A stretch of DNA of 64,000 nucleotides from NCBI RefSeq assembly GCF_014252435.1, contig NZ_CP059220.1:124001-188000 (forward strand), written 5' to 3'. How positions within the stretch are numbered: position 1 is the stretch's first letter; each line of letters begins with the position of its first letter. The DNA comes from Blattabacterium cuenoti. Its GTDB lineage: Bacteria > Bacteroidota > Bacteroidia > Flavobacteriales > Blattabacteriaceae. This document shows, piece by piece, positions 2,689 through 31,632 of the stretch. Below the pieces are notes generated by a model. It was not told the DNA's origin and made no database searches. It saw only the letters and a program-made list of their open reading frames with translations. A program made the translations under genes and the position numbers.

Positions 2689-3113
2689 ATGAATAAAAAA
2701 AATTGTATAAAAAGAAATGATCAATTCTATATGAAAATAGCTTTTGAAAATTCAAAATTGTCTATTTGTAAAAAAAAAAAGTAGGAGCAGTCATCGTTAA
2801 AAATAATAAAATTATTTCTTTCGGTTTTAATAAAACTCCAAATGGATTTCCTCATTCTTGTGAAGATAAAAATGGAAATACAAATTGGTATGTCATTCAT
2901 GCAGAAGCTAATGCAATATTAAAAATTGCTTCAAATTTTTTATCTTGTGAAAAATCTACTATATATATCACACATTTTCCATGTAAAGAATGTTGTAAAC
3001 TAATATATCTTTCTAAGATTAAAAAAGTGATTTATTTATATTATAAAAATAATCATGATGAAAATGATTTTTTAAACAAATTAGGAATAATTGCACAACA
3101 ATTGATATGGTGA
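2689..3113 (+). pseudogene. dCMP deaminase-like gene with a poly-A frameshift
   Basis: Reading from the ATG at 2689 gives a normal dCMP/cytidine deaminase N-terminus, but a tract of 11 A (2770-2780) puts the ribosome onto a TAG at 2782-2784. One added A restores the frame, starting VGAVIV at 2781 and running to a TGA at 3111-3113. The downstream part keeps the zinc site: HAEANAILK for the HAE motif and PCKECC for the PCxxC motif. The intact enzyme would convert dCMP to dUMP, the substrate of ThyA (10.6 kb). It may be a new pseudogene, or may still make protein through RNA polymerase slippage on the A tract, as reported for other AT-rich endosymbionts. A sequencing error is the third possibility. 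Confidence 0.8.
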
Positions 3114-3125
3114 AAATTTAATCAT

Positions 3126-3211
3126 ACCCAAGTGGCGAAATTGGTATACGCGTTGGACTCAAAATCCAATGATTATTTTCAATCATGCGGGTTCGAATCC
3201 CGCCTTGGGTA
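3126..3211 (+). tRNA. tRNA-Leu (anticodon CAA)
   Basis: The full cloverleaf can be read by eye: acceptor stem ACCCAAG (3126-3132) pairs with CTTGGGT (3204-3210), discriminator A at 3211; anticodon stem TTGGA/TCCAA encloses the loop CTCAAAA, giving CAA at 3160-3162; a long class II variable arm TGATT...AATCA follows; the T arm is GCGGGTTCGAATCCCGC. The CCA end is not encoded. It reads UUG leucine codons. The 3' end lies 2 bp from the end of convergent ureC. Confidence 0.97.
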
Positions 3212-3213
3212 TT

Positions 3214-10622: not shown

Positions 10623-11420
10623 TTATATCGCAACATCTCCTTTGAGATGAGGAAAAGGATTGTAATTTTTTAAATAAAAATCTTCAAAAGAAAATTTGAA
10701 AATATTTTTCACATTTGGATTAATCACCATTTCTGGAAGAGGTCTAGGTTTTCTTTTTATTTGAATTTTTACTTGTTTCATATGATTATTATAAATATGA
10801 GCATCTCCTATAGTATGAATAAATTCTTTTTCATATAAATTCAAAGTTCTAGCTATCATAAGAAGTAATAAAGAATAAGATGCTATATTAAAGGGTAATC
10901 CAAGAAATATATCTGCGCTTCTTTGATATAATAACAACGATAACTGTTTATTCCTTACATAAAATTGAAACAATAAATGACATGGAGGTAGTGCCATATT
11001 TTGAATCATACTAACATTCCAAGAAGAAACAATTAAACGTCGTGAATTTGGATTAGATTTTATTTCTTTTATAAGATTGACAATTTGATCAATAGGATTA
11101 CCTCCATTATAAGTAGGCCATTTTCTCCATTGATATCCGTATATAGGACCTAGATTTCCATTTTCATCAGCCCATTCATTCCAAATAGTTACTTTATTTT
11201 TTTGTAAATATTGGATATTAGTATCTCCTTTAATAAACCATAATAATTCATATATAATCGATCGTATATTTAATTTCTTCGTAGTTAAAAGTGGAAATCC
11301 TTTTTTTAGATCAAATCTCATTTGATATCCAAATATACTAACCGTACCTATTCCAGTTCTATCTTTTTCTCTATATCCATTATTCAATACATTTTGTAAT
11401 AAATCTATATATTGTTTCAT
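10623..11420 (-). CDS. thyA: Thymidylate synthase
   Basis: This 265-aa enzyme methylates dUMP to dTMP with methylenetetrahydrofolate. Catalytic C147 lies in [21 protein letters not shown] and [15 protein letters not shown] are further family signatures, as is the C-terminal HLKGDVAI that closes over the active site. The length equals E. coli ThyA (264 aa). The dUMP supply would depend partly on the frameshifted dCMP deaminase at 2.7 kb. It is divergent from prs. Confidence 0.98.
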
Positions 11421-12447: not shown

Positions 12448-13040
12448 TGAAATACATTAATATATATGGAAACAAAAGAAATACTGGAAAAAAAGAATTA
12501 CGTATCATTCGATCTTCTGGTAGAATACCATGTATTTTATATGGAAAAAATATGAATATTCCATTTTCGATTTCTTTAGATACTTTGAAAAAAGTGATAT
12601 ATAGATCCGAACTATGTGGATTTATTATTCAATTAGAAAAATTCAACGAAAATATTAAAGCGATTCGTAAAGAAGTACAAATGCATCCCATTAACGATCA
12701 AATTTTGCATATAGATTTTTATAAAATTGATCCATTGAAATCAATTATCATAGAAATTCCTATTAAATTTGTTGGAAGACCTATAGGAGTTTCGAAAGGT
12801 GGCACATTCTATTCCCCTTTAAAAAAAATAAAAGTAAAAGCAAAAATACAAGATTTACCAGATGCCATTCATATAGACATTGGTAATCTAAATATCGGAG
12901 GTAAAATAACAGTAGAAAATATTCATAATAAAACATATCAAATATTATTACCTATGAAAACTTTAATTGCTAGCGTGAAAATATCTCGAACTATTATTAA
13001 AAACACAACAGAAGAACAAGATAAAGAATCAAATAAGTAA
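12447..13040 (+). CDS. rplY: 50S ribosomal protein L25 (Ctc family)
   Basis: This 197-aa protein has the 5S rRNA-binding L25 domain (about 1-95, with RIPCILYGKN and the HIDFYKID turn) followed by the beta-rich TL5/Ctc C-terminal domain, ending in a short charged tail (TEEQDKESNK). This is the long form found outside gamma-proteobacteria. It binds 5S rRNA in the central protuberance of the large subunit. It is coupled to prs (1-nt overlap) and to tadA (TAATG, 1-nt overlap); prs-ctc is a widely conserved pair. Confidence 0.93.
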   Translation: MKYINIYGNKRNTGKKELRIIRSSGRIPCILYGKNMNIPFSISLDTLKKVIYRSELCGFIIQLEKFNENIKAIRKEVQMHPINDQILHIDFYKIDPLKSIIIEIPIKFVGRPIGVSKGGTFYSPLKKIKVKAKIQDLPDAIHIDIGNLNIGGKITVENIHNKTYQILLPMKTLIASVKISRTIIKNTTEEQDKESNK

Positions 13041-13495
13041 TGAATCATGATATTCAATTTATGAAAGTTGCTATTAATGAAGCTATAGTAGCCTTATATA
13101 AAAATGAAGTTCCTATTGGAGCCGCTATTACTTATCAAAATGTAGTAATCGCGAAAACTCATAATTTAACTCAAACCTTCCAAAATATTACAGCACATGC
13201 TGAAATGTTAGCAATCAATTTAGCTTCTAGTCACTTAGGAGTAAAGTATATAAAAAAATGTACATTGTATGTAACAATAGTACCATGTATAATGTGTGCT
13301 GGAGCATTGTTTTGGTCCAAAATAGGAAAAGTGGTTTGTGGAGCAAATAACCATTCTAAAATCGGTTTTTTAAATTATGGTATCAAATTACATCCAAAAA
13401 CAAAATTTATTTTTGGTATAATGGAAGAACAATGTCAATACTTAATACAAAAATTTTTTTTTATTCGTAGAATTCAAAAAAAAATGTTTAAATAA
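13040..13495 (+). CDS. tadA: tRNA(adenine-34) deaminase
   Basis: This 151-aa zinc deaminase converts A34 of tRNA-Arg(ACG) to inosine for wobble reading of CGN codons. The active site is complete: H53-A-E55 and P82-C83-x-x-C86 (PCIMCAGAL). An NHSKIGFLNYG segment fits TadA rather than cytosine or guanine deaminases. It overlaps rplY by 1 nt upstream, and its last 8 nt overlap the end of convergent dedA. Confidence 0.92.
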   Translation: MNHDIQFMKVAINEAIVALYKNEVPIGAAITYQNVVIAKTHNLTQTFQNITAHAEMLAINLASSHLGVKYIKKCTLYVTIVPCIMCAGALFWSKIGKVVCGANNHSKIGFLNYGIKLHPKTKFIFGIMEEQCQYLIQKFFFIRRIQKKMFK

Positions 13496-30102: not shown

Positions 30103-31632
30103 ATGAAAAATGCCTTAGTTAGTGTTTATAACAAAAATGAAAAATTACTGAAATTTGTTCATTTTTTAATGGATAAAAAATATCAAATAATTTCTTCTGA
30201 TGGTACATTCCAATATCTAAAAAAAAACGGATTTAAAAAAGTCTTAAAAATATCAGATGTGACATCTTTTCCCGAAATTTTGAACGGAAGAGTAAAAAGC
30301 CTTCATCCTAATATTTATGCAGGAATTTTATCCGATCGAACTATTCAACATCATATTAAATATATTCGAAAACATAATATTCCATTTATTGATATTGTAT
30401 TAATTAATTGTTATCCATTTTGCGAATATCAAAAAAAAAATATGGACATTGATTCTATAATAGATTTTATAGATATAGGAGGACCTGCTATGATTCGTTC
30501 TGCTGCTAAAAATTTTTTTTATGTTACCCCTATCATAGACTTTAATGATTTGAAATACGTTCAATATGAAATCGAAACAATGGGAAACACCTCATTAAAA
30601 TTAAGAAAAAAATTAGCAGGAAAGGCTTTTGATTTTACTTCAACCTATGATTGGAATATTTCCAATTTTTTATATGAAAAAGAAAAATTTCCTAATCATA
30701 TGCATTTTTCTTATAAAAAAAAAATGAATCTCCGGTACGGAGAAAATCCACATCAAAAATCTGCTTATTATATTAACCAAACAAGTCAAGGATCCATGAA
30801 AAATTTTGAACAATTAAATGGAAAAAAACTTTCCTTTAATAATTTAAGAGATATAGATTTAGCTTGGAAAGTCGTATCTCAATTTTCAGATCCAGCTTGT
30901 TGTACAGTAAAACATAGTACTCCTTGTGGTGTTGCTTTAGGAAAAAATATTTTTGAAGCTTTTCAAAAAACTTATGACGCTGATTTTATTTCTTTTTTTG
31001 GTGGAATATTGGCCGTTAATAAACCTATTTCAAAGAAATTAGCAGAAAAAATAACAAATATTTTTTTAGAAGTCATTATATCTCCAAGTTATGACTTAGA
31101 AATCGTAAAAATACTTAAAAAGAAAAAAAAATTAATCATTATTCAAATGAATTCCTCTACGATTTCTGAATTATTAGAATTTGTTCAAATAGATGGAGGT
31201 TTATTAATACAAGAGTCAGATTACTTTGTACCTGATGTAAAACATTATAATTTAGTAACAAGACGATCTTTTTCTGAAGAGGAAAAAAAATCTTTATTTT
31301 TTGCACAAAAAGTAGTAAAATATGTAAAATCTAACGCAATTGTTATAACTAAAGGAACACAAACTTTAGGAATATCTGGAGGTCAGACTAATAGAATATG
31401 GGCAGCTCGTCAAGCTATCAATAGATCTCTAGAAAAAAATGAATATGGGTTGGTTTTAGCTTCTGATGCTTTTTTTCCTTTTCGTGATGTTGTAGACGAA
31501 GTAGCACGATCTGGCCGTATTCAAGCAATCATTCAACCAGGAGGATCAATACGTGATAAGGAATCAATCCAAGCTTGCGACGATCATGGAATAGCAATGG
31601 CTTTTACTGGAAGAAGATCTTTTAAACATTAG
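30103..31632 (+). CDS. purH: AICAR transformylase / IMP cyclohydrolase
   Basis: This 509-aa bifunctional enzyme performs the last two steps to IMP. The N-terminal MGS-like IMP cyclohydrolase (about 1-190) has NGRVKSLHP and the IDIGGPAMIRSAAKN loop; the C-terminal transformylase has the catalytic lysine-histidine in CTVKHSTPCGVALG and ends with the family's GIAMAFTGRRSFKH. Length and order match E. coli PurH (529 aa). purD starts 4 bp after its stop. Confidence 0.97.
   Translation: MKNALVSVYNKNEKLLKFVHFLMDKKYQIISSDGTFQYLKKNGFKKVLKISDVTSFPEILNGRVKSLHPNIYAGILSDRTIQHHIKYIRKHNIPFIDIVLINCYPFCEYQKKNMDIDSIIDFIDIGGPAMIRSAAKNFFYVTPIIDFNDLKYVQYEIETMGNTSLKLRKKLAGKAFDFTSTYDWNISNFLYEKEKFPNHMHFSYKKKMNLRYGENPHQKSAYYINQTSQGSMKNFEQLNGKKLSFNNLRDIDLAWKVVSQFSDPACCTVKHSTPCGVALGKNIFEAFQKTYDADFISFFGGILAVNKPISKKLAEKITNIFLEVIISPSYDLEIVKILKKKKKLIIIQMNSSTISELLEFVQIDGGLLIQESDYFVPDVKHYNLVTRRSFSEEEKKSLFFAQKVVKYVKSNAIVITKGTQTLGISGGQTNRIWAARQAINRSLEKNEYGLVLASDAFFPFRDVVDEVARSGRIQAIIQPGGSIRDKESIQACDDHGIAMAFTGRRSFKH

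Follow-up and report, generated by a model that had tools for sequence, protein, structure and literature searches.

A frame break at a poly(A) tract in a dCMP-deaminase-type gene of Blattabacterium, probably old and probably corrected at expression

Poly(A) frameshifts in Buchnera and Blochmannia, the subject of Tamas et al. 2008, are reportedly corrected by transcriptional slippage. In the excerpts of PMC3017870 used here, such frameshifts are described as mended, or thought to be mended, by slippage in both genera; some endosymbiont frameshifts are kept between species, some homopolymer cases are interpreted as incipient gene erosion, and in dnaX of Blochmannia pennsylvanicus an interrupted tract accompanies an intact frame. 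Runs of 9 A's or T's are an established site of slippage by RNA polymerase, and at long poly(A) tracts in aphid and ant endosymbionts 12-50% of transcripts were corrected (PMC5009743, excerpts). The dnaX genes of Thermus (slippage) and E. coli (-1 frameshifting) carry a long A/T run, or the heptamer A_AAA_AAG with a stop adjacent or near, and make two functional products (PMC5009743, excerpts).

A dCMP-deaminase-type gene with a comparable lesion was located in the 586,140-base genome of a Blattabacterium, an endosymbiont of a cockroach. Coordinates below refer to the window, the whole 64,000-nucleotide stretch analysed, unless stated otherwise. As in the published parts consulted for Buchnera and Blochmannia, the gene belongs to an AT-rich insect endosymbiont, carries a short indel in a long A/T tract, is otherwise in frame, shows no unusual acceleration and shares its frameshift across species. 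Unlike those systems, nearly all other surveyed A tracts are in frame, and the case is known from DNA alone. In contrast to the two dnaX genes, here the shifted frame alone gives a product that looks functional, and a search for a stimulator found none. The kind of event, poly(A) slippage, is itself known; new relative to the papers searched is the extent, with the frame of one gene broken in 33 of 49 genomes and apparently so from the root of the genus, where the Blochmannia study as excerpted compared three genomes.

No report of a deaminase frame break in Blattabacterium was found among the titles and abstract openings searched. The words 'deaminase' and 'frameshift' are absent from the main texts of PMC9603385, PMC4567559 and PMC6128925, and from that of PMC6039017, which lists other pseudogenes. 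'Deaminase' is absent from the main text of PMC3287516, and neither 'deaminase' nor 'Blattabacterium' occurs in that of PMC3711429, on frame transitions in prokaryotes.

Structure of the gene and membership of the dCMP deaminase family

The gene and its parts are as follows.

2689-3113, + strand: dCMP-deaminase-type gene, broken at the A11 tract only, both sides open
2689-2784, + strand: 5' half, zero-frame ORF of 27 residues up to Cys, then KKKK and the stop TAG (2782-2784)
2770-2780, + strand: A11 tract, frame-break site and candidate slippage site, A11 in 30 of 49 genomes
2775-2781, + strand: A_AAA_AAG heptamer in the zero frame, abutting TAG, candidate -1 ribosomal frameshift site
2781-3113, + strand: 3' half, zinc-binding domain of dCMP-deaminase type, 110 aa, open, PF00383
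2898-2906, + strand: HAE zinc/catalytic motif, kept in 49 of 49 genomes
2979-2993, + strand: PCKEC zinc motif (PCxxC), kept in 49 of 49 genomes

Translation from the ATG at 2689-2691 reaches codon 27, TGT (Cys, 2767-2769), which is followed by the A11 tract and then by GTA GGA GCA. The starting frame crosses the tract as AAA AAA AAA AAG TAG and closes a 31-residue ORF at 2784. The family frame, V-G-A, begins at 2781 and is open through to TGA at 3111-3113. The heptamer that abuts the stop is a motif known from dnaX (PMC5009743, excerpts).

The initial annotation placed the lesion at the A11 tract alone, which was borne out: both flanks are open and both zinc motifs are there. A run of at least 9 A's or T's is the sole lesion in this gene and in 32 of the 33 broken genomes, the exception being G045. 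The 5' half retains a conserved stretch of the type YM..A...S..S.C, a zero-frame ATG lies 5' of the Cys codon in 32 of the 33 broken genomes, and the 20 codons up to and including Cys are open in all 48 genomes that keep the Cys (G045 excluded). Family motifs had also been reported for both halves; HAE and PCxxC are indeed present, but both lie in the 3' half.

The native spacing was taken from outgroups (a scan of named genomes kept 80 of 327 relatives, 15 of those 80 inspected). Cys and VGA are separated by 4 residues (12 bases) in a Tannerella relative (C-KRRK-VGA), and likewise by 4 residues in the solved deoxycytidylate deaminase 4p9c (C-KRMK-VGA), so the A11 tract is one A short. Of the two lesions first proposed, one missing A thus agrees with the 12-base spacing, while two extra A's would leave the loop 1 residue short.

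In a profile search the 3' half scored 73 bits against PF00383 (cut-off 25), and an in-frame ortholog (L035) scored 82.3 bits. The nearest solved structure to this ortholog was 4p9c (E 1.8e-30), followed by 2hvv and 1vq2, with the first TadA at 5.6e-06; its closest solved relatives are dCMP deaminases, neither TadA nor RibD. The ComEB equivalog model TIGR02571 (NCBIfam, cut-off 219.45) was missed by both the 110-aa fragment (71.1 bits) and full-length L035 (88.6 bits). The gene has the zinc motifs in common with the solved dCMP deaminases 4p9c and 2hvv, and the C-x4-VGA spacing with 4p9c; it differs from them in its reading frame, broken at the DNA level in 33 of 49 genomes, and in falling under the ComEB cut-off. 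The product is predicted to be a dCMP-deaminase-type enzyme converting dCMP to dUMP, a substrate suggested by its relatives.

Distribution and age of the break

The gene was recovered by protein search from 49 Blattabacterium genomes including the present one, and 20 kb around it were taken from each. The 3' half was found in 49 of 49, with zero stops within the match. The tract is a pure A11, out of frame, in 30 genomes and A10, also out of frame, in three (G007, G046, G045); it is in frame as a pure A12 in nine and as a 12-base tract with a substitution in seven. No A9 or A13 tract was found among the 49. Comparison with related strains, which the initial annotation had proposed, therefore showed a shared break, with 33 of 49 genomes out of frame. 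Only G045 carries a further lesion, its Cys codon being replaced by a stop.

A tree was built from 8 concatenated neighbouring proteins by a quick search and rooted at the midpoint without an outgroup; 31 of the 46 internal branches had support of at least 95. No fewer than 10 switches of frame state are needed on this tree, and A11 occurs to either side of the midpoint. Under Fitch parsimony this rooting gave a broken root, with the frame gained 8 times and lost 2 times and the broken state spanning 4.35 of 5.94 branch-length units. The out-of-frame state is thus probably old, from the common ancestor of the sampled Blattabacterium onward, with about 8 returns to frame. A recent loss of a single A is unlikely, since parsimony traces the break back to the root of the sampled genus. 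Repeated independent origin of A11 is possible, given a root without an outgroup and the fast mutation of homopolymers. The symbiosis with cockroaches has been dated to more than 200 million years (PMC9603385, excerpts). Unlike in the cases interpreted as incipient erosion, the broken frame of this metabolic gene appears to be both its ancestral condition and its most frequent one.

Interrupted tracts were found in 0 of 33 broken and 7 of 16 in-frame genomes (p = 1.3e-4, without tree correction), and the seven comprise about 5 kinds of substitution. Two of the three interruption gains placed by parsimony sit on branches that also change frame, so parsimony accommodates either order of interruption and frame change.

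Slippage and competing explanations

What is observed is the break and its spread, together with selection on the codons and the scarcity of comparable breaks across the other surveyed genes. We consider that these observations probably reflect an old frame break in a working dCMP deaminase gene that the cell corrects during expression, slippage of RNA polymerase being the likeliest means. The polymerase would slip on the A11 tract and add one extra A in a fraction of transcripts. Messages with 12 A's would then be translated through C-KKKK-VGA, with native spacing, into the full enzyme, which would supply dUMP to ThyA; unslipped 11-A messages would give a 31-residue dead end. The initial annotation had suggested that slippage could rescue the gene. 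That it could is supported indirectly, by the 33 of 49 genomes whose frame is broken at this tract and by purifying selection in 13 of 14 broken pairs; the slippage step, the amount of product, its substrate and its metabolic use are what we infer.

Slippage is favoured by the A10 genomes, by the restriction of interruptions to in-frame genomes and by the lack of a downstream structure, none of them decisive. The interruptions count in its favour because slippage would not survive an interrupted tract. Against it, if rescue were cheap other genes would be expected out of frame too, and 306 of 315 long A-runs elsewhere are in frame. The deaminase may be singled out either because a small amount suffices, so that loss of yield goes unselected, or because a low dose is favoured.

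Programmed -1 ribosomal frameshifting on A_AAA_AAG before UAG would give the same C-KKKK-VGA product, alone or together with slippage; it is the chief competing explanation, though considered rather unlikely. The heptamer is correctly framed in all 30 A11 genomes and a stop lies directly 3' of it in 28; the remaining two reach a stop at the 4th or 11th codon past the heptamer. Among the 34 tRNA genes in the genome of the window there is one tRNA-Lys (UUU), which makes A_AAA_AAG plausible as a shift site: excerpts of PMC5009743 tie the shiftiness of this heptamer to a sole tRNA-Lys and rate it as far more prone to shifting than four other heptamers. Frameshifting would also account for the prevalence of 11 over 10 or 13. 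The mean folding z of the 60 bases 3' of the site, however, was -1.29 in A11 genomes against -1.82 in in-frame genomes, and an alignment of 27 of the 30 A11 genomes gave no consensus pairs. No downstream stimulator was seen by either simple or consensus folding of pseudoknot-free structures. Shift-prone heptamers without a stimulator in E. coli gave motif/no-motif ratios of 2.1-10 over a background of about 0.055% (PMC4066793, excerpts, in which A_AAA_AAG is not among the values). A10, present in 3 of 33 broken genomes (G007, G046, G045), is beyond repair by a -1 shift; in G007 and G046 slippage could mend it. The leading four A's are dispensable for a shift, yet no interrupted tract occurs in the 33 broken genomes.

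On a tentative reading, which we hold to be possible though doubtful, the A11 tract has been a selected recoding element since the Blattabacterium ancestor, holding dCMP deaminase low through slippage and possibly also through -1 frameshifting. The gene would then be kept out of frame by selection, beyond mere tolerance, and this would be why the deaminase stands out among the surveyed genes with A tracts. The natural series of A10, A11, A12 and interrupted tracts offers a testbed for slippage yield and dose selection, and bears on why other long A tracts in these genomes remain in frame.

The gene might instead be a pseudogene, dispensable in the broken lineages and intact in appearance through recent history. 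This is improbable, and pseudogene decay fits the sequences poorly. Ratios of dN/dS were estimated 3' of the tract for 14 pairs with both members broken, some genomes entering more than one pair. In 13 of them the ratio was 0.17-0.45, against which the claim that the gene and the dCMP to dUMP step are simply lost is not supported; five in-frame pairs gave 0.12-0.47, and the neighbouring rlmB gave 0.12-0.52 over 19 pairs. The outlier, G006/G014, gave 0.89 with few synonymous changes, which favours decay, as does the second lesion in G045. Decay is likewise favoured by deaminase ratios above those of thyA in 13 of 13 measurable broken pairs (3 of 5 in-frame pairs); constraint on the deaminase gene is weaker than in some neighbours. 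An alternative source of dUMP is possible too, with a dUTPase match over cut-off in 12 of 49 genomes. On the 5' side of the tract pN was below pS in 12 of 14 broken pairs, a noisy result from just 20 codons. Of the Lys codons in the 3' halves only 4% are AAG, which makes the purity of the A tract a weak sign of constraint.

Set against decay, the 3' half is open in every one of the 33 broken genomes. When a neutral 110-codon frame was put through a simple simulation that redrew 30% of its bases, fewer than 1% of draws stayed free of stops; between G000 and G030 about half of the synonymous sites differ. Real decay is present in the same genome, at a neighbouring gene.

757-1341, + strand: acyltransferase gene remnant with 9 stops

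This remnant has 32% identity to the reference, against 73-77% and no stops in four relatives. The gene is intact over the match in G009, G010, G011 and G039, the G009 copy matching PF01553, and no match was found in G015, G023 or G030. Decay also leaves the approximately 8 returns to frame unexplained.

Upkeep of the stretch merely as a leader of tRNA-Leu was considered and fails to account for the coding constraint. Independent translation of the 3' half was likewise considered. In 23 of the 33 broken genomes no ATG, GTG or TTG precedes HAE in the VGA frame. A 3' fragment initiated on its own would there miss the active site, and such translation is unlikely in these genomes. The first start codon in that frame lies between VGA and HAE in seven of the 33 and before VGA in three.

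Generic assembly error is unlikely. That the real length is 12 and was called 11 is very improbable, although long homopolymers are prone to miscalls and G045 looks odd. Runs of at least 9 were phased from both flanks in 53 genes including the deaminase (about 60 kb, 21 genomes); 960 of 1084 runs were confidently phased and the remaining 124 dropped. For A-runs of at least 10, 9 of 315 were out of frame in the 52 other genes and 18 of 22 in the deaminase gene (Fisher p ~1e-19, without tree correction). Of the four in-frame runs of the deaminase, two are A12 tracts and two lie at other positions of the gene. One reference (G012_36), which contributes two of the 9, had 10 of its 52 runs out of phase, seemingly because they fall at a gene end. 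In the genome of the window 45 A/T-runs of at least 9 were phased in the surveyed genes and the deaminase tract alone is out of frame.

A11 is agreed by 30 assemblies, and nearly every other long A-run keeps the frame, which argues against the suggestion that A11 arose as an assembly error. Outside the deaminase, the 21-genome survey found 4 out-of-frame A11 against 16 in-frame A12 runs; undercalling of A12 would thus be at most about 4/20, versus the 17/19 required at the deaminase. In-frame runs of A13-A16 were also found (n = 24). A coarse frame test of 17 other genes of the 20-kb stretch judged 788 of 808 copies intact, several of the other 20 being end effects, and counted 237 A-runs of at least 10 in the copies judged intact. 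A second coarse test called 121 of 1113 gene-genome cases split or partial, partly through end effects, missed the broken deaminase and was replaced by the phasing.

Phase variation, with A11 and A12 chromosomes coexisting in each host and the consensus reporting the commoner, would suit the 10 or more frame-state changes on the tree, but it requires an A11 majority in 30 hosts, by chance or selection, and is highly improbable.

Neighbouring genes and thymidylate supply

The neighbours considered were the following.

1879-2676, - strand: SpoU/RlmB-type rRNA methyltransferase, divergent, start 12 bases from the deaminase start
3125-3212, + strand: tRNA-Leu(CAA), 11 bases past the deaminase stop on the same strand (ARAGORN)
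10629-11417, - strand: thyA, thymidylate synthase, no stops, using dUMP, the expected deaminase product
13040-13495, + strand: TadA-like deaminase, 93 bits to the TadA model, below its cut-off of 150

The tRNA-Leu(CAA) gene lies at most 400 bases 3' of the deaminase in 45 of 49 genomes and may be co-transcribed with it; ARAGORN found none within 400 bases in G007, G025, G037 and G042. A second dCMP deaminase was looked for, and the sole other match in the genome of the window was the TadA-like gene at 13040-13495.

No match to the PF00265 thymidine kinase was found in the genome of the window; with a ThyA free of stops, dUMP is presumably needed. Scoring the deaminase as a pseudogene could misstate thymidylate synthesis genus-wide. 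A search for dUTPase (PF00692) found nothing at E 0.001 in the same genome, whose plasmid may be unassembled. Of the 12 dUTPase matches over cut-off among the 49 genomes, nine lie on another contig than the deaminase and three on the same one; two of the 12 carry an internal stop. Where present, dUTPase may supply dUMP. With these 12 matches, the deaminase is not claimed to be essential as the only dUMP source.

In G002, G016 and G017 the dUTPase gene (L185 for G017) lies about 4-5 kb upstream of the deaminase on the same contig; two usual neighbours had no match in the fetched stretch, and integration of a plasmid is possible. Nine genomes have dUTPase-like matches below the cut-off. A chromosomal dUTPase-like ORF was noted in the genome of the window, G003 and G008 (L187:6353-6733, at C1 ~30352-30732 of the genome of the window; L183; L186). 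It has a C-terminal motif of the RG..SFGSTG type and is without the GTIDSDYRGEI of the canonical L184 and L185.

In the 20-kb regions, thrB and thrC had no match in 7 of 49 genomes and were split in G047, and thrA looks cut in G001, G015 and G041. Sporadic cases of the same type as the deaminase break were seen in rnhA, which is split between frames in G021, G047 and G030 (L172, L175, L182). The break lies near A-runs of 10 and 13 in G021 and G047, and G030 has an A12 run out of phase.
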